Shown here: piece after piece, positions 14,760-23,781 of the stretch | How the letters are laid out: the number at the start of each line of letters is the position of its first letter | Numbering within the stretch: the first letter of the stretch is position 1 | NCBI RefSeq assembly: GCF_024172085.1 | Contig: NZ_JAMZDZ010000001.1 | Span: forward strand, 2,790,001 to 2,854,000 | Length of the DNA: 64,000 nucleotides | From: Hamadaea flava | Lineage (GTDB): Bacteria > Actinomycetota > Actinomycetes > Mycobacteriales > Micromonosporaceae | Reading direction: 5' to 3' | Notes under the pieces: model-generated | Database searches by the model: none | Told to the model about the DNA's origin: nothing | What the model saw: only the letters and a program-made list of their open reading frames with translations | Position numbers and translations under genes: made by a program

Positions 14760-14788
14760 GCGGCCGCCTCAGTCCTTGAGGCGGCCGC
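14760..14788. terminator. hairpin at the end of the SARP-type gene
   Basis: A perfect 12-bp inverted repeat (GCGGCCGCCTCA at 14760-14771 with 14777-14788) includes the stop codon of the leftward regulator gene and lies 9 bp after the FG-GAP pseudogene stop. It can act in both directions. Confidence 0.6.
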
Positions 14789-17636
14789 GGACCGCGTCGG
14801 CATCGGCATGCCCCAACTGATCAAGGATCGCCACCGCGGCTTCCCATGCCGCCCGGGACTCGCCTGACTGACCGGCGGCAGCGTACGCATCACCGAGGTG
14901 GGTCAGCGAATCAGCCTCGTTGAACAAGTCGTGCGACCGCCGGAACAGGTTCACCGCCGTGGTGAGGCACTCGATGGCTTCGGTGTGCTCGCCCAGGTGC
15001 AGATGGGCGTAGCCCAAGCTGTCCCAGATGGCGGCCGATCCGGCGGTGTCGTCGAGCGCCTGCGTCAGCTCCAACGCCTGTCCACAGTGGTCCAAGGCGC
15101 GCCGGTAGTCGCCGAGCTGCGCGTACCCCCAGCCGATGGCGTTGAGGATTCGCGCCTCGCCCACGCGGTGCCCTGCGCGGCGATACCGCTCCAGCGCCGT
15201 GAACCGGTCTCGTTGCGCAGCGCGATGCCGGCCTTGCAGATGCAGCATCCACGAGCGGCCCATCGATGTGTGGGCGCCGCCGAGCAGGTCGCCCTGCCGA
15301 CCGTACATCACTAGCGCAGCTTCGTAATGACCGCCCGCGTCCGCATACTGGCCCATTTGGGTGTAACCGCGGCCCAGCAGCCGGTGCGCGTATGCCTCGC
15401 CGACCGGATCGCCTCCGCGCTTCGCCGCGGCCAGTGCGATCAGCTCCACCGCGATCCAGTCGCGCCAATGCCCTTGATTGTCGAGATAGTCCAGCAGCGT
15501 CCACGCCAGCTGCCAGGCTCGCGCGTCTTCACCCGCGGCCCACGCCCGCTCGACCGCCGCCACCAGGACCGCGTGCTCCGCGGCGAACCACGCCATCGCC
15601 TGCTCCGCGTCGCTGAAAGTGAGCACCGGCACACCTGCCACCACGGGCACCGGCACGATGGGCTCGCGGTGCGGATCCACGAGCATGGCCGCGCGCATCG
15701 CCGTGGCCCGATAATGATCGAGTACGCGCACCGAGGCGATCTGCTTCTCGTCTTCGGCCAGCAACTCCGACGCGTACGCGCGCAGCAGATCGTGCATGGT
15801 GAACCGGCCGGGCAGGTGCTCGACGACCAGATGGGCCCGGACGAGTTCACCGAGCGCGGCGCGGGCGCGGGCGGCTGGCCAGGCCGCGAGGCTGGCCGCC
15901 GCCGGAGTTGCGAAGTCAGCGCCGGGCAGGGCGTCGCACAGCGTGAACAGGGTGGCCGCGTCACTTCCGAGGGCCCGTAAGGACCAGGAGAACACCGATC
16001 GGACGTCACCCAGGTCGCCTAAGCCGCCGCCGTCCGGCCGAAGATCGGCCGCGATCTGGTCGAGGGGAAACGCCGGGTACAGTGCGGCCCGGGCGGCGAC
16101 CACGGCCAGCGCGAGCGGCAGCCGGGCACACTGCGTGGCGATGCGTTCGGCCACACCTGGCACGGCATAGGCCCGGTGCCGACCGATCCGGCCGGCAAGG
16201 AGCCGGACGGCGTCGTCGGCGGGGAGCAGGTCGAGCATGACCGGCTCGGCTCCTTCCGCAGCGACCAGGCCACGAAGCTGGTCGCGGCTGGTGATCACAA
16301 CGCGGCAGCCAGGTGTCCCGGGAAGCATCGGCCGCACCTGTTCGGCGTCCCGCGCGTTGTCGAGCACGATCAGGACTCGTTGGCCGGCGAGCAGACTGCG
16401 GTAGAGCCCGACCTGCGCCTCGAAGGCGACGGGAACGCGTGCGGCCGGCACTCCCAGCGCATCGAGGAAGGCCCTTAGCACCGTGCCGGGATGGGCTACC
16501 GCTCCGGCGGGGCCGAAACCGTGCAAGTCGGCGAACAGCTGACCGTCCGGGAAGCGATCTCGTACGCCGTGCGCCCACCGGAGGGCCAGCATCGTCTTGC
16601 CGACTCCGGCGGTGCCGGTGATGACGCAGACGGCCGCACCGGAATGATCCAGCTGCCGCAGGGCGTCGGACCGGCCGACGAAACCCGGGGCCGGCGCGGG
16701 CAGTTGCGCCGGGCGTACCCACGCTTCGTGCTCCGTTCCGGCCACCTGCCGGTACGCCACCGTGAGCTCGTCACCGGGTGTGACACCCAGTTCGTCGGCC
16801 AGCCGCTCGCTGATGTCGGCGTGTGCTTTGAGGGCGGCGGCACGGTCACCGCTGCGCGCCAGCAGCGTCACCAGCCGGGCGTGCAGCGGCTCGTGCAGCG
16901 GCTCCGACGCGGACAGCGTCCGCAGCAGGTCGACGGCCGCGTCGCCGCGATCGGCGTACGCGATCGCCGCCTGCAGCCGGCGTCGGCCCAGCGCCAGGGC
17001 CGCGGGGTGCGTCCGCAACCGGTCGGGTGCGTCGGCGAGCACCGGACCGCGCCAGCATTTCAGCGCCTCTTCCAGCCGTCCCGCTTCCAGGAGCGCCGCG
17101 AATTCGCCGGCGTCCACTTCACCGGCCTCCAATCGCAGCTGGTACCCGTGCCGTGCCTTGTACAGCCGTGGCTTCTCCGGGGCGTCGAGTATTCGCCGCA
17201 ATCGGCTGACAGCGCTTTGCACCTGTCCGACTGCGCTCCGCGGTGGATTCGCGCCCCACAGCACGTCCACGATTTCGTCGCGGCCGACCACCTCGCCGGC
17301 TTGCACCGCGAGCAAGCCCAGGAGTGTCTGCTGAAAGGGCGGGCCGGGTGGGACGGGCGATCCACCGATCCGGATGATCAGCGGTCCCAGAACGCCGAGG
17401 TGCACCCCCGACCGGCCCCGGCGCAACAGCTCCGTCACTTCCAGCGTCGACAGCCCGAGGCAGGCCGCCAGCCGCGACATCGACTCCGGACGCGGGGTCG
17501 CGACCCGGCCGTTCTCCAGATCGCGGACCGCCCGCACGCTCAAGCCGGCTCGCTCGGCGAGCTGCTGCTGCGTCAGGTTCGCCCGCCGGCGGTGCTCGCG
17601 CAAGAGCGCACCCAGCAGCTGCGCCCGTGCCTCCAC
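14769..17636 (-). CDS. XRE-SARP-NB-ARC-TPR transcriptional regulator (AfsR/SARP type)
   Basis: A 955-residue multidomain regulator. Residues about 6-65 are an XRE helix-turn-helix (LREHRRRANLTQQQLAERAG). Residues 80-170 are an OmpR-like SARP winged helix (LGVLGPLIIRIGG). Residues 175-300 are the bacterial transcriptional activation domain (ELGVTPGDELTVAYRQV at its end). The NB-ARC ATPase has P-loop GTAGVGKTM at 341-349, RVLIVLDNARDAEQV as Walker B and the LPLALAVVAARA motif. TPR repeats fill the last 300 residues. AfsR-like proteins activate secondary metabolism after a signal sensed by NB-ARC/TPR. Having both XRE and SARP DNA-binding domains is notable. The GTG at 17636 with AAAGG upstream is preferred over a longer frame. 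It lies between two pseudogenes and no biosynthetic cluster is adjacent. Confidence 0.93.
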   Translation of the reverse strand: MEARAQLLGALLREHRRRANLTQQQLAERAGLSVRAVRDLENGRVATPRPESMSRLAACLGLSTLEVTELLRRGRSGVHLGVLGPLIIRIGGSPVPPGPPFQQTLLGLLAVQAGEVVGRDEIVDVLWGANPPRSAVGQVQSAVSRLRRILDAPEKPRLYKARHGYQLRLEAGEVDAGEFAALLEAGRLEEALKCWRGPVLADAPDRLRTHPAALALGRRRLQAAIAYADRGDAAVDLLRTLSASEPLHEPLHARLVTLLARSGDRAAALKAHADISERLADELGVTPGDELTVAYRQVAGTEHEAWVRPAQLPAPAPGFVGRSDALRQLDHSGAAVCVITGTAGVGKTMLALRWAHGVRDRFPDGQLFADLHGFGPAGAVAHPGTVLRAFLDALGVPAARVPVAFEAQVGLYRSLLAGQRVLIVLDNARDAEQVRPMLPGTPGCRVVITSRDQLRGLVAAEGAEPVMLDLLPADDAVRLLAGRIGRHRAYAVPGVAERIATQCARLPLALAVVAARAALYPAFPLDQIAADLRPDGGGLGDLGDVRSVFSWSLRALGSDAATLFTLCDALPGADFATPAAASLAAWPAARARAALGELVRAHLVVEHLPGRFTMHDLLRAYASELLAEDEKQIASVRVLDHYRATAMRAAMLVDPHREPIVPVPVVAGVPVLTFSDAEQAMAWFAAEHAVLVAAVERAWAAGEDARAWQLAWTLLDYLDNQGHWRDWIAVELIALAAAKRGGDPVGEAYAHRLLGRGYTQMGQYADAGGHYEAALVMYGRQGDLLGGAHTSMGRSWMLHLQGRHRAAQRDRFTALERYRRAGHRVGEARILNAIGWGYAQLGDYRRALDHCGQALELTQALDDTAGSAAIWDSLGYAHLHLGEHTEAIECLTTAVNLFRRSHDLFNEADSLTHLGDAYAAAGQSGESRAAWEAAVAILDQLGHADADAVRGRLKD

Positions 17637-17838
17637 AGCGGAGCCTTTCCTGCTCGACGAGATGGATCCGGGGCCGAAGCGCCGGCACCGATACGACGCT
17701 GTGGCGGTCGTCGGTGGTCTACGGCAACGTTCTCCATCGTAGCCGTCGATCCCTGCGACGGCACGTCGATCTCCTGTGGACATCGGCCCCGCCGGAGTCG
17801 GCGAAAACGCCCTGGCCGCGGCCGTCGTGCAGGGCCAA

Positions 17839-18454
17839 GCAGCCTGAAGCGGAAGACAAGCTCGCCGCGATCCAGAAGAAGAACGACGACCTGTTGGCCG
17901 CGAAGATCTCACCCGCCGGGCATTCGGCGCTCGCACAAGGGCTGAGCATGCTCGCGGTGGCGATCGCCGGCATGCCGACCACCTGACGGCGCGGCTGCTC
18001 AGGCGGCCGCGCCGACTGCAGTTCCAAAGGCCCGGTCGACGGCCTGCGGACCGTGCCAACATCCTGCGGCCGACCCAGAACGCGCTGCGCACCTTGGAAT
18101 GGGTGACCCGTCGCGAGAACCTGTGCATCTGCGGCCCATGAGCAACGCGGCCGACGTGACCGGCGACGGCGTACCCAGCTCGTGGGGCTCCGGCGACCGG
18201 GCGTGGGCGATGATGAAGATCATCTGCAACGAAAGCAGCTTCGACGTCTCCGCCGTCAACGGCTCCTCCTACGGCCTCGGCCAGATGGGCCGCACCCAGA
18301 TCGCCGACGCGAACGTGTCGTTCGACTGCTACTGGAACGCCGAACGCACCTGCGCCGCTTCTACCAGTGCCTGGCCGCCCTCCGATACGCCAACCAGCGG
18401 TACGGCACGCTGCTCGCCGCCTGGGACTTCTGGAAGGACCATCACTGGTGGTGA
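17839..18454 (+). pseudogene. transglycosylase-like (lysozyme-fold) secreted protein, frameshifted
   Basis: Pieces of one protein occur in successive frames. First AEDKLAAIQKKNDDLLAAK and a hydrophobic segment to 17986. Then a short Ala/Pro piece (GAAAQAAAPTAVPKARST). Then NILRPTQNALRTLEWVTRRE to LCICGP, with a stop at 18139. Then MSNAADVTGDGVPSSWGSGD to NESSFDVSAVNGSSYGLGQM. Finally RRFYQCLAALRYANQRYGT to a stop at 18454. The NESSFD and SSYGLGQM motifs with the catalytic-type Glu mark a transglycosylase/lysozyme fold. At least four indels separate the pieces. No start is preserved. It lies head-to-head with the SARP gene, overlapping its upstream region. Confidence 0.75.
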
Positions 18455-18549
18455 GCTGGGGCTCGTCCGGACCGGGTGTCCAGGAAGCACGATCCCGCCT
18501 ACCGGTGGAGCGCTGCCGGTTCGAGCCTCCGCGTACGCGCGCCGGAGCC

Positions 18550-18978
18550 TCATCCCCCCGAGGGTAGCCGCCGGATCATCACGCCGAGGACGCGGTCGCG
18601 GCGGACGAGTCCGAAGTAGCGGGAGTCCGTGCTGACCGGCCGGTTGTCGCCGAGGACCACGTAGCAGCCGGCCGGTACGCGGCGGTCGCCGAGCCCGTGC
18701 ACGTCGGGCCGGGCCCAGTCGGCGGGAAGGTGCTGCCCCGCGACGGCCACCACGCGTTTGAGGAGCAGGGCGGGGTCGGCGGGCAGCCGCATGAGGACGA
18801 CGTCGCCGCGGCGGGGCCGGCGCGTACGCCGGATGAGGACCCGCTCGCCCGGGCGGAGGGTCGGCTCCATGCTCGCACCATCCACAGTGGCCAGGATGAG
18901 CAGCAGCCGGGCCCCGAGGGCGAGGCCGCCCAGCGACGCCACGGCGAGCAGCAGGACCACGATCGCGGGCGTCGTCAC
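18550..18978 (-). CDS. S26 family (type I) signal peptidase, small
   Basis: A 142-residue membrane-anchored serine protease. One N-terminal helix (residues about 4-30) is followed by the catalytic Ser box GASMEPTLRPG (Ser36) and the general-base box LLLKRVVAVAG (Lys74). The GDNRPVSTDSRYFG box of S26 enzymes is near the C-terminus. It is much shorter than housekeeping LepB (about 250 residues or more), consistent with a dedicated processing enzyme. The GTG start overlaps the stop of the ABC transporter gene by 4 bp (GTGA), so the two are translationally coupled. By position its likely substrate is the six-Cys peptide encoded at 21413-21571. It closes the operon. Confidence 0.93.
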   Translation of the reverse strand: MTTPAIVVLLLAVASLGGLALGARLLLILATVDGASMEPTLRPGERVLIRRTRRPRRGDVVLMRLPADPALLLKRVVAVAGQHLPADWARPDVHGLGDRRVPAGCYVVLGDNRPVSTDSRYFGLVRRDRVLGVMIRRLPSGG

Positions 18979-20816
18979 GGTACCGCCTGGTATCCGGCCG
19001 CCTGCAGGCGGAAGAGCCGGGCGTAGGTGCCGTCCGCCGCGAGCAGGGCGTCGTGCGGGCCGTGTTCGGCGATGCGGCCGTCGGCCAGGACGGCGACGAG
19101 GTCGGCGTCCCGCACCGCGCTCAGCCGGTGGGAGATCAGCAGGCTGGTGCGGCCCTCCCGATGCTCCCGGATGCGTTCGTGCACCTCGTGCTCAGCCTCC
19201 GGGTCGAGGCCGGAGCTCGGCTCGTCGAGGATCATCAGGTCGCGGCCCGCGCGGACGAGCGACCGGGCGAGCGCCAGCCGCTGCCACTGGCCGCCGGACA
19301 GGACCACCCCGGTCTCGGCGTCGGGGCCGTCGTCCCCGTTGTCCATGCCGAGGATGAACGTACGCGTCAACGGCGTGTCGTAGCCGTACGGCAAAGCGGC
19401 CAGCCGCTCGTGGACGCCCGCCCGTTCGGCCGCGCCGACGAGCCGGGGGCGGTCCGCCAGTGCCGTCAGGTCGCCGAGGCCGATGTTCTCGGCAGCGGTC
19501 ATGTCGTAGTTCATGTGCTCCTGGAAGACCGCGCTGATCCGCTCCCGCAGCGACGCCGGCGACAGGTCCCGGAGGTCGACACCGTCCCAGAGGATCTGCC
19601 CGCGGGTCGGGTCGTACATCCGGCACAGGAGCTTCACGAGGGTGGTCTTGCCGGCCCCGTTGAGCCCGACGAGCGCCACCGCGTACCCGTGCGGGATCGT
19701 GAGATCGACGCCCCGCAGGATCCAGGGGTGGTCGTCGCTGTAGCGGAACCAGACGTCGCGCAGCACGATCCCGTGGCGCAGCGCGGGCGCCGGGCGGTCG
19801 GCGACCGTGGGCAGGTCGGGCTCGGCCCGTAGCACCGCGACGTAGTGCGTGAACGCCAGCAGGCGCGCCTGGCCGCCGGTCACGGCGGCCGTGAGCCCGG
19901 ACAGCGCGGCCTGCACGCCGATGATCGCCGCCACGAACATCGACACGTCGCCGACCGTCAGCCCGCCGCCACGCGCGGTGGTGACGGCCCACCACAGCCC
20001 GTACCCGGCGACGCCCGCGCTCGCCGCCTTGAGCGCGCCCTGTACCACGGCCTGCCGCGCGTCCACCCGCCGCCGGGCGGCATCGGCCCGTTCCCGCTCC
20101 CCCATCATCCGGGTACGCAGGAAGCCGCCGATCCCGAACAGCCGGATCTCCATCGCGGCGTCGACCCCGGTCAGCAGATGGCCGTAGAAGAACTCGCGGC
20201 GGTGGAAGCGCTCGACGTGCCACTCCGTCGCCGAGCGCCGCCGGGCGAGGCTGAACTCGGCCAGCAGCACCGGTACCGCCGTGCCCAGCACGACGACCGT
20301 CAGCAGCGGGCTGAGGAGCAGCAGCGACCCGAGGAAGCCGGTCAGCCCGAGGACCCCGCTGACCAGGCTCCCCGCCCCGTCGACCAGCTCGGGCAGCCGC
20401 CGGGCGCTGTCCTGGGCCAGCCGCAGCCGGTCCTGGTACGCGGGGTCCTCGAACCGGCGCAGCCCCGCCTGCCGGCCCAGCGCCGCGAACAGCCGATCGG
20501 TGGCGCCCCGGCTCGCAGACCGGCCCACCTGTTCGCGGGCGAACCGGGCGGCGACCGGCAGCAGGGCGGTGGCGAGCCCGGCGGCGACCAGCCCGGCGGC
20601 CGGAGCCGCCACAGCTGCCCCCGTTGTCGCCAGCCGGTCGAGCACCGCCTTCGTCAGCCAGGCGGTCAACACCGGCACGACCGCGACGGCCGTCGTCATC
20701 GCGAGGAAGGCCGACAGCCGCACCGGCCCGCACCGCCACAGCAACGCCGCCGCCTCAGCCGCGGCCTCGCGTACCTGCCGGGCGCTGATCCGCCGGCGCG
20801 GGCGGGTCGTCGCCAC
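18975..20816 (-). CDS. ABC exporter, fused permease and ATPase (peptide exporter type)
   Basis: A 613-residue half-transporter. Residues about 30-310 carry six membrane helices; the C-terminal 250 residues are the nucleotide-binding domain. The Walker A motif is GLNGAGKTTLVK, the signature LSGGQWQRLALARS and the Walker B DLMILDEPSSGLD. The architecture is that of MsbA/lantibiotic-type exporters without an N-terminal C39 peptidase, so leader cleavage must come from another enzyme. The signal peptidase gene overlaps its 3' end, and the thioredoxin-like gene ends 6 bp upstream of its start. Function inferred from context: export of the cysteine-rich peptide across the cytoplasmic membrane. Confidence 0.93.
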   Translation of the reverse strand: MATTRPRRRISARQVREAAAEAAALLWRCGPVRLSAFLAMTTAVAVVPVLTAWLTKAVLDRLATTGAAVAAPAAGLVAAGLATALLPVAARFAREQVGRSASRGATDRLFAALGRQAGLRRFEDPAYQDRLRLAQDSARRLPELVDGAGSLVSGVLGLTGFLGSLLLLSPLLTVVVLGTAVPVLLAEFSLARRRSATEWHVERFHRREFFYGHLLTGVDAAMEIRLFGIGGFLRTRMMGERERADAARRRVDARQAVVQGALKAASAGVAGYGLWWAVTTARGGGLTVGDVSMFVAAIIGVQAALSGLTAAVTGGQARLLAFTHYVAVLRAEPDLPTVADRPAPALRHGIVLRDVWFRYSDDHPWILRGVDLTIPHGYAVALVGLNGAGKTTLVKLLCRMYDPTRGQILWDGVDLRDLSPASLRERISAVFQEHMNYDMTAAENIGLGDLTALADRPRLVGAAERAGVHERLAALPYGYDTPLTRTFILGMDNGDDGPDAETGVVLSGGQWQRLALARSLVRAGRDLMILDEPSSGLDPEAEHEVHERIREHREGRTSLLISHRLSAVRDADLVAVLADGRIAEHGPHDALLAADGTYARLFRLQAAGYQAVP

Positions 20817-20822
20817 CTCCGG

Positions 20823-21341
20823 TCAGCTCCCGCTCAACGCCGGCCGGCGGGGCAGATCCGCCAGCCGGGCCCCCGCCGCGACGACGTACCGGCCCGACAC
20901 GACATACAGCGAGGGCGTCCAGGTGTTGCGGAACGCCTTCGCGACCGGTCCGCCGGGCAGGTCAGCCTTCACCACCCGGGCAACCTCGGCGAGCGCGTCC
21001 ACCGTCTCCGGGTCGTCACCCGCAACGACCGCGAGGACGTTGCGCCGCCCCTGCTCCCGCGCGTACGCGACGAAGTCCGGCAGCAGCTCGTGGCAGGCCG
21101 AACAGCCGGCCGAGAAGAACGCCACCGTCCCCGTCAGCGTCTCCTCGGTGATCGGCTCACCGTCGACCGTGGTGACCTCGAAGGCATCGACGGCCGACCC
21201 CGGGCGCAGACCCGACGACGAGTGGCCGGCGACCTTCGCCTCGGCCTCGGCCCGCAGCCGACGCAGGATTCCCGCCGTCAGCAGCAGATTGAACACACCG
21301 AGCAGACCCAGCGCCACCAGAGCGGCGATGACGACCTGCAT
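20823..21341 (-). CDS. membrane-anchored thioredoxin-like protein (TlpA/MauD-like)
   Basis: A 172-residue protein. One N-terminal membrane helix (residues 3-24) is followed by a linker and an extracytoplasmic thioredoxin-like domain. The redox motif is Cys80-Ser-Ala-Cys83 in AFFSAGCSACHELLPDF; a TlpA/AhpC-TSA-like GDDPETVDALAEVA and the WTPSLYVVSGRYV strand follow. Such proteins reduce, isomerise or form disulfides on the outer face of the membrane. The ATG at 21341 has AAGGAGG just upstream. It is 71 bp downstream of the six-Cys peptide gene and 6 bp upstream of the ABC exporter. The obvious reading is disulfide handling of that peptide. A partner MauE/DsbD-type membrane protein is not seen nearby. 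Confidence 0.9.
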   Translation of the reverse strand: MQVVIAALVALGLLGVFNLLLTAGILRRLRAEAEAKVAGHSSSGLRPGSAVDAFEVTTVDGEPITEETLTGTVAFFSAGCSACHELLPDFVAYAREQGRRNVLAVVAGDDPETVDALAEVARVVKADLPGGPVAKAFRNTWTPSLYVVSGRYVVAAGARLADLPRRPALSGS

Positions 21342-21412
21342 GGGCTCCTCCTTCGACAACGTGTACGCCGGGCGGCGGTACGAAGCGCCGCCCGGCTCAT
21401 CGGTCCGGCTCG

Positions 21413-21571
21413 TCAGCAGCCGTAGCGGACGAAGCTGTAGGAGCAGCCGCTGTCCGGGCAGCAGTACCGCCAGAACGTGATACCGCCGAGGCAGACGTCC
21501 GCGCCGCTGCACGCGGACGCGGTCGTCGTGCGGACGACCTTCGAGATCAGGCGGTCGACGATGCGCATCAT
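21413..21571 (-). CDS. six-cysteine secreted peptide precursor
   Basis: A 52-residue peptide too short for routine gene calls. Leader: MMRIVDRLISKVVRTTTASA, basic and amphipathic and not hydrophobic enough for a Sec signal. It ends in Ala-Ser-Ala, a signal-peptidase-I-like site. The remaining 32 residues start with Cys and hold all six cysteines, at positions 21, 27, 37, 38, 43 and 52 (pattern C-x5-C-x9-CC-x4-C-x8-C), plus Trp, Tyr and Phe. GGAAGGA lies 9 bp before the first ATG. It is first in an operon with a thioredoxin-like protein, an ABC exporter and a signal peptidase. Its family is not known to me. Function (bacteriocin, signal or structural peptide) is open; the precursor role is inference from context. 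Confidence 0.78.
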   Translation of the reverse strand: MMRIVDRLISKVVRTTTASACSGADVCLGGITFWRYCCPDSGCSYSFVRYGC

Positions 21572-22882: not shown

Positions 22883-23257
22883 CTAGGAGCAGGCCCCAAC
22901 CGCGGCGCCGAACAACGCACCGAACACGTCTTCGGCGTGCTCGAGTCCCTTTCCGTTGGCCAGGTTGGGGTTCGCGCTGCCCTCACCGATCGTCTTGTCC
23001 GAGCGAACCGTCAGGGACGCCGGACCACCGTGGGAAAGCCAGTACGCGACGAAGCATGCCTGGTCGGTGCCGGGCGGTGCGAACATGAAGATGTCCTCGG
23101 GCGTCAAGGTGGTCCACCGCCCTGAATTCAGCGCCATCGCATTGCCCTGGTCCGACCGGTTGGCGATGAAGCACTCGTGGGCCGATGCCGCATTGCCGAA
23201 GAGAAGGGCTCCCGCCGCCACCCCGGCGATGATGATGCCGATGCGTTTGAAGATCAC
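22883..23257 (-). CDS. small secreted protein of unknown function
   Basis: A 124-residue protein. A Sec signal peptide is clear: VIFKRIGIIIAGVAAGALLF then GNAASA, with cleavage before HECFIANRSDQGN. The mature part is about 95 residues with three cysteines (HEC, QAC and the penultimate residue), suitable for an exported folded domain. GTG at 23257 is preceded by GGAGGAG, rather close; an ATG six codons upstream (MESEEY) is an alternative. I do not recognise a family with a known role. G+C is lower than in most genes here. It stands alone, followed by a strong terminator hairpin. Confidence 0.75.
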   Translation of the reverse strand: MIFKRIGIIIAGVAAGALLFGNAASAHECFIANRSDQGNAMALNSGRWTTLTPEDIFMFAPPGTDQACFVAYWLSHGGPASLTVRSDKTIGEGSANPNLANGKGLEHAEDVFGALFGAAVGACS

Positions 23258-23781
23258 GTACTCCTCCGATTCCATCCGAGACTGCCGGACGGAGGGGAGA
23301 CGTGCCGGCACTGCACATCTGTGACGTCACTGACCCTATGAGCGGTATGGCCGGTTTATCGCCACCTTGGGGAATCCCAGATGTCGCCTTGCCGACAGTT
23401 CAGGTGGTTTGAAGCCCAGCGGCCAGACGGATGCACGCTTCACCCGGACATCCGGGCTGGACAAGTACTCTTGGGGTACTGCGCGTTTCGTCGGCGTAGC
23501 GGGCGAGCACATAGGCTGCGCGGTCGCGGCCCACGGGATGAAGATCATCGCGCGCTCGCTGGTCTCGACCCACGCAGGCCGAATGGGTGGGCCGTAACAC
23601 CTGACCTGCGATATCGGCTTGTGTGGGGCTACCGGTTGGCCGAAACTCGGCCCGTGACCTTCAAAGCAGCAAATGTCGTGCGCCACCGCTACAACACTGC
23701 GGTATGGCCCGCTGGAGGAGTGCCGATCTCGGACAGTCAACACGCCGAGCCCGTAACGCCGCTCATGACCCAGATACCCAC
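23258..23781. other. 524-bp stretch with no supported gene
   Basis: Open frames on both strands are short, lack ribosome binding sites and have no recognisable motif. The right part (from about 23700) is the upstream region of the next gene; the left part carries the promoter of the secreted-protein gene. Confidence 0.5.

Follow-up and report, generated by a model that had tools for sequence, protein, structure and literature searches.

The cysteine-rich peptide operon

The window analysed here is a 64,000-nucleotide stretch of the Hamadaea flava genome (contig NZ_JAMZDZ010000001.1, positions 2,790,001 to 2,854,000 of the forward strand). Four minus-strand genes spanning positions 18550-21571 of the window encode, in order of transcription, a small cysteine-rich precursor peptide, a TlpA-like thioredoxin, an ABC exporter and an S26 signal peptidase, separated by gaps of 71, 6 and -4 bp. 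These open reading frames (ORFs), with their positions, strand and spacing, had been listed in an earlier note on this DNA and were all reproduced from the sequence.

The precursor gene (21413-21571, 52 residues) has a purine-rich GGAAGG stretch immediately 5′ of its ATG which, judged by eye, is a plausible ribosome-binding site. Its translation consists of a leader, MMRIVDRLISKVVRTTTASA (21512-21571), whose final TTTASA ends in A-S-A, and a 32-residue core, CSGADVCLGGITFWRYCCPDSGCSYSFVRYGC (21416-21511), in which the six cysteines are arranged as C-x5-C-x9-CC-x4-C-x8-C, the pattern that the note had placed behind an Ala-Ser-Ala site. The computed mass of the 32-residue product is 3,471 Da with three disulfides (3,477 Da reduced), slightly above the roughly 3.4 kDa previously given for a mature peptide of this length, and its computed pI is 5.9. 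Structure prediction placed a helix at leader residues 5-15 with low confidence (predicted local distance difference test, pLDDT, 54-57) and, in a single-sequence prediction, a three-stranded beta sheet in the core (mean pLDDT 90.5, predicted template modelling score 0.45). Neither Pfam nor NCBIfam had a model matching the precursor at E≤1, and its four matches to PDB sequences were all at chance level. Full-length orthologues retaining all six cysteines were found in two of three same-genus relatives (96% and 75% identity), and both also retained the gene order precursor-tlpA-abc-S26. A precursor search of 101 genomes (E≤1e-3) gave no match in 98, the matches being the genome itself and these two relatives; the core of the window is therefore narrowly distributed.

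The products of the remaining genes were as the note had described them, with motifs and Pfam in agreement. The thioredoxin (20823-21341, 172 residues) is membrane-anchored, has the active-site motif CSAC and matches Pfam AhpC-TSA below the curated cut-off (E 3.7e-4). Among 31 aligned homologues both active-site cysteines are invariant, and an RRLR motif is invariant or more than 90% conserved. The fused exporter (18975-20816, 613 residues, start codon uncertain) was recognised by Pfam ABC_tran; neither a C39 nor any other peptidase domain was found in it, nor was a peptidase domain found in four scanned homologues. The S26 protein (18550-18978, 142 residues) carries GxSM and KR motifs, of which SM and KR are invariant in four aligned sequences, and matches Peptidase_S26 (E 1.3e-25), TIGR02227 (89.3 bits, cut-off 47) and PF10502 (90.8 bits, cut-off 22.9).

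Downstream on the same strand lies a frame (14769-18128) for a SARP-type regulator with XRE helix-turn-helix, BTAD, NB-ARC and TPR domains by Pfam, whose true start is probably internal. It is probably linked to the cluster: a gene 97% identical to it adjoins the same operon in one relative (L025), while the stretch from another (L024) contained no match. The earlier note had missed this regulator, as well as the MauE partner found in many relatives and the paralogous loci described below.

A family of clusters with a shared leader

Thioredoxin homologues were found in 56 of 151 genomes searched, with up to 17 in a single genome. A wider sample of the class, for which 8 candidates per genome were scored, gave thioredoxin matches at E≤1e-15 in 30 of 394 genomes; both counts include the genome of the window. 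Eighty stretches were hand-picked from the thioredoxin-homologue places found in the survey of 151 genomes. By tblastn (E≤1e-3) tlpA was present in 77, the ABC gene in 70 and S26 in 69, although at this threshold the ABC count may include some other transporters. Forty of the 80 had MauE and 43 a SARP-type regulator. The tlpA, ABC and S26 genes occurred together in 62 stretches, and 54 of these 62 also had a leader-bearing small ORF. The note had named short ORFs upstream of such trios as the place to look; leader-bearing, cysteine-rich ORFs do recur beside the trio in many genomes, contrary to the lack of conservation by which the note would have been refuted. In a crude gene call, which underlies all statements on recurring families below, the machinery recurring in at least 35 of the 80 loci comprised ABC, TlpA, SARP, S26 and MauE proteins (named from representatives), and beyond these and the precursors no other protein family occurred in more than 5 loci. 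Representatives gave 87.6 bits on PF07291 (MauE of locus L067, cut-off 27) and 97.6 bits on BTAD (one regulator).

The precursors share a leader motif, LxDRLLxxxVPKxxAxA, which is joined to differing cysteine-rich cores. At a loose limit a hidden Markov model (HMM) of the leader retrieved 78 candidate precursors; at E≤0.01 it retrieved 74, located in 62 of the 80 loci, a figure that is not independent because these loci also served to build the model. Outside the training set, leader matches were found in 24 of 38 loci, or 23 of 37 without L195, which repeats L037, and 30 of these 38 loci extend only ~1.5 kb per side. No match was found in five Markov shuffles or in the reversed sequence of the 80 loci, controls which derive from family loci and are thus matched in composition. 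The model was also silent on 898 kb around distant ABC genes (77 loci, L117-L193); 11 of these loci carry actinobacterial names, and most come from other phyla and differ in base composition. Within the window, the model matched one of 324 cysteine-containing frames, the precursor (E 4.9e-9), whose own family went into building the model. Moreover, when the 8.86-Mb genome was searched with 14 leader queries (150 of 217 candidates scored), the six top-ranking matches (E 2.6e-9 to 0.185) were those in the clusters around its six thioredoxin homologues; two of these six leaders were themselves among the queries. Five further matches (E 0.36 to 6.7) were chance-like, one of them lying in the S26 gene region of one such cluster.

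The genome of the window holds five further loci of this type (contig G000:C1, at 540242 (L037), 1373511 (L086), 1415388 (L064), 2985105 (L085) and 8832191 (L084)), each with its own cysteine-rich precursor and S26 gene. That of L086 is a close variant of the precursor in L089, a locus from a different genome of the same genus. Further afield, the trio was found in Streptomyces echinatus and S. atratus (L114, L116). On a plasmid of S. clavuligerus, genes for MauE, thioredoxin, ABC and S26 come after a pair of precursors, and a plasmid of S. atratus has a cluster with a BTAD regulator. Other named hosts were Streptomyces sp. NBC_00376, Embleya and Nonomuraea gerenzanensis. Where records are annotated the precursors appear as hypothetical proteins; the Embleya and Nonomuraea stretches are unannotated. 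A metagenome-assembled genome from the Micromonosporaceae (L115) contained the trio with no leader match within its short contig. L114, L115 and L116 had the tlpA-ABC-S26 set among 80 ABC loci listed, 11 of which were scanned for the trio. The ABC exporter was an uninformative bait: it gave 2 of 396 genomes (own included) with 3 of many ABC candidates scored per genome, and the alignment scan of named genomes rested on generic ATPase motifs.

In L040 and L045 the exporter is encoded on the other strand and the precursors are of two types, the first preceding tlpA and the second forming a tandem pair after S26. In four loci from another actinobacterial family (L220-L223, f105), weaker thioredoxin and ABC matches adjoin each other and MauE is present in three, while a leader-type ORF was not found in the short stretches covered; these may represent a sister system.

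Conserved leaders and hypervariable cores

A set of 95 non-redundant cores was compiled, which includes one probably false member (L040, 3811); L225 and L116 have an identical S. atratus precursor. Over the last 20 leader residues random precursor pairs are 39% identical, against 22% in the core. Likewise, the leader is more alike than the core in 21 of 25 pairs from the same locus (e.g. 0.96 against 0.73, 0.92 against 0.56 and 0.79 against 0.41). The longest leader run free of charged or strongly polar residues is at most 7 in 72 of 95, so that in composition the leader is not Sec-like, in agreement with the earlier note. A proline stands at position -7 in 93%, and A-x-A directly precedes the core in 86 of 95. 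A-x-A is the preferred site of S26 signal peptidases, and its frequency is thus consistent with S26 cleavage. Since the window exporter and the four scanned homologues lack a peptidase domain, S26 most likely stands in for the C39 domain of other bacteriocin exporters.

Cysteine makes up 17% of core residues, arranged in 22 orders and 92 exact spacings among the 95 cores. The order C-C-CC-C-C is shared by the window core and six others, and its spacing of 5-9-0-4-8 recurs as 5-12-0-4-7 in L209 and 5-9-0-4-7 in the Embleya locus L227. The exporters of these two loci are, at 66% and 64%, the closest to that of the window outside its genus among the loci compared. Ten further precursors of the family gave a single sub-threshold viral match (E 0.035) against Pfam and NCBIfam and otherwise none.

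The number of cysteines is even in 86 of the 95 cores (mostly 6 or 8, with a maximum of 12). Among other small ORFs of the same loci that have 4 or more cysteines, it is even in 363 of 600 (p ~6e-11, relatedness ignored). All 27 cores from loci outside the training set have even counts. These parities suggest that the cysteines form disulfides and favour these over thioethers, between which the note had not chosen. Four loci (L052, L091, L048 and L055) keep an odd count of 7 across related sequences, which could reflect dimers or a free thiol.

Proposed function and alternatives

Taken together, the sequence data make it probable that the product of the operon is an exported, disulfide-rich peptide directed by its leader, one member of a large family in actinobacteria whose cores are hypervariable. 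The SARP-type regulator would switch the operon on, and the amphipathic leader, to judge from its conservation, would carry the precursor to the machinery at the membrane. There the TlpA-like thioredoxin would control the redox conditions under which the six cysteines pair into three disulfides, helped by MauE, which is encoded next door in many clusters and is perhaps supplied in trans for the window operon. S26 would cut after A-S-A to free ~32 residues, and the ABC exporter would move the peptide out. A bacteriocin-like role against competing microbes, suggested by cores that vary while leader and machinery stay, has about an even chance of being correct. It is possible, though rather doubtful, that the family amounts to an uncharacterised peptide class combining a conserved non-Sec leader, toxin-like hypervariable disulfide cores, maturation by MauE/TlpA and S26 at the cytosolic side of the membrane ahead of ABC export, and SARP control across several actinobacterial families.

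Several observations weigh against this account. Eight of the 62 trio loci had no leader match at E≤0.01, and no immunity gene was found to recur in the 80 loci. No MauE gene adjoins the window operon or is present in the two orthologous stretches; PF07291 scored above its cut-off three times in the genome, and none of these genes is next to the operon. Nine of the 95 cores have an odd number of cysteines, one of which (L040, with 3 cysteines and no A-x-A) is probably false. Selection between orthologues is weak: the window precursor and that of its 75% identical relative (G001) differ in 20 of 51 compared codons, 13 non-synonymously, with non-synonymous (dN) and synonymous (dS) divergence of 0.19 and 0.29, and therefore this pair alone is no proof of coding. 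Finally, the charge bias around the membrane segments would place the thioredoxin and S26 domains in the cytosol, at odds with simple folding and cutting outside.

This last point leads to a tentative alternative, in which maturation takes place wholly on the cytosolic side of the membrane: the CxCFG loop of MauE, the thioredoxin and S26 would all point inward, and both the disulfides (or their control) and leader removal would precede export of the folded peptide. TlpA homologues average 0.47 lysines and arginines in the 9 residues before the transmembrane segment against 3.9 in the 15 after it (43 sequences). However, this contrast is inflated, because the sequences were selected for an RRLR-like motif after the helix, and their start codons come from the crude gene call. 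S26 proteins show 0.42 before the hydrophobic stretch and 2.5 after it (33 sequences), and one S26 of the same genome from outside these clusters (L242) differs in having RR before that stretch. In 35 aligned MauE proteins lysine and arginine are concentrated in alternate loops, the CRCFG loop included. Moreover, the window S26 scores 52.1 bits on TIGR02754, a model of the maturation protease of nickel superoxide dismutase, which removes a non-Sec leader, though below the cut-off of 63.25. Against this, S26 enzymes normally act outside, and the positive-inside rule is unreliable for short N-termini. The note had supposed that the set makes, folds, exports and trims a peptide; the conservation of trio, leader and A-x-A supports the outline, with the charge patterns as a qualification regarding the membrane face at which folding and cutting would occur.

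A second alternative, for which we would likewise give less than an even chance, is that the peptides are not antimicrobials but work for the producer itself, as signals or morphogens, by binding metals or by inhibiting enzymes. The lack of a recurring immunity gene fits this, as does the charge of the cores, which is not strongly positive (median +0.8 at pH 7, with an acidic pI for the window core). However, hypervariable cores, the many tlpA homologues of some genomes and several precursors per locus would be unusual for a housekeeping signal, and the diversity of spacings argues against a single conserved metal site.

It is very improbable that the cysteines are mainly thioether-linked, as in lanthipeptides or sactipeptides. 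In favour are the serine (7.5%) and threonine (6.1%) contents of the cores and the frequent use of ABC exporters in clusters for ribosomally synthesised and post-translationally modified peptides (RiPPs). However, among the families that recur in the 80 loci there is neither a lanthionine synthetase nor a radical SAM family (Pfam on representatives of recurring families), in line with the note's observation that no known RiPP-modifying enzyme is present, and the mostly even cysteine counts and dedicated thiol redox partner point to disulfides. That the small ORF is no gene but a fortuitous frame in front of an unrelated redox-exporter operon, as the weak purifying signal (dN/dS ~0.6, window against G001) might allow, can be dismissed almost entirely given the empty controls, the genome-wide association, the leader conserved across families and the fact that the S. 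clavuligerus and S. atratus records annotate related ORFs as small hypothetical genes.

If the preferred reading of a leader-directed disulfide peptide is true, soil actinobacteria, including the well-studied S. clavuligerus, possess a large, so far unexploited collection of disulfide-rich mini-proteins that share one type of leader. Each cluster would bring its own folding and export kit, transferable to laboratory Streptomyces for hard-to-fold peptides, and MauE/MauD-type proteins would gain a small, tractable client.

Flanking regions

Between S26 and the regulator, on the plus strand (18099-18635), frames judged by eye resemble fragments of a lytic transglycosylase domain divided over two frames, apparently a degraded remnant. 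Upstream of the operon, a stretch of lower G+C content contains a minus-strand frame of 142 residues (22883-23311) with a hydrophobic N-terminus ending in ASA. No Pfam match was found for it at E≤0.01, and it is possibly another small secreted protein.

Comparison with known systems

The closest precedent is a set of candidate families from Streptomyces. As described in the main text of the decRiPPter study (Kloosterman et al. 2020, PMC7794033), 42 candidate families were obtained, 3 with mauE, one of which also had mauD. Each mauE family had a predicted precursor with at least 8 cysteines, and a role for mauE in precursor modification was proposed, a guess which would become directly testable if the reading above holds. 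The strict filter also required genes for a transporter, a peptidase and a regulator. These mauE families probably include Streptomyces members of the present family. The present family is accordingly treated as only partly new. The earlier note had concluded that the peptide fits no class it could name; the mauE candidate families do offer a probable listed counterpart. By word count "S26", "signal peptidase" and "thioredoxin" are absent from that main text, whose passages on the mauE families give no leader motif, spread beyond Streptomyces or product and do not pursue these families further. Relative to the 2020 listing, and judged against open-licence papers, what is new here is the wider taxonomic spread, the leader motif, the S26 and SARP association, the cysteine parity and the hypervariability.

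In methylamine dehydrogenase maturation, as is proposed for the present family, MauE and a membrane-anchored thioredoxin-fold protein (MauD) serve a small cysteine-rich client, but here the client would be a short, hypervariable exported peptide. No MauD model was found in an NCBIfam scan of the window thioredoxin at E≤1. The methylamine dehydrogenase light chain (PF02975) had no match in the genome, and control genomes were equally silent.

Knottin and defensin folds were considered on account of the C-C-CC-C-C order and weak laterosporulin matches, and were not adopted: the fold matches were all insignificant and tied with unrelated proteins, and the cysteine patterns fail. The window core has the order of an inhibitor cystine knot, but its second loop of 9 residues lies outside the knottin range applied here, which none of the 95 cores fits. 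The bacterial cis-defensin pattern as given in PMC11561630, CX(2,18)CX(3)CX(2,12)CX(4,17)CXC, is not matched by the window core and is matched by 4 of the 95. The missing fold match is no evidence of a new fold. The actifensin locus, as described in the main text of PMC6989792, differs in containing a subtilisin-like protease, a LuxR regulator and several ABC genes; the word "thioredoxin" is absent from that text.

A disulfide peptide encoded with a thiol-disulfide protein and an ABC exporter also recalls sublancin and the pediocin-type bacteriocins. The exporters of those systems carry a C39 peptidase that cuts after a double glycine. In contrast, the window exporter is without C39, the precursor leader ends in A-x-A and not in GG or GA, and S26 seems to be the substitute.

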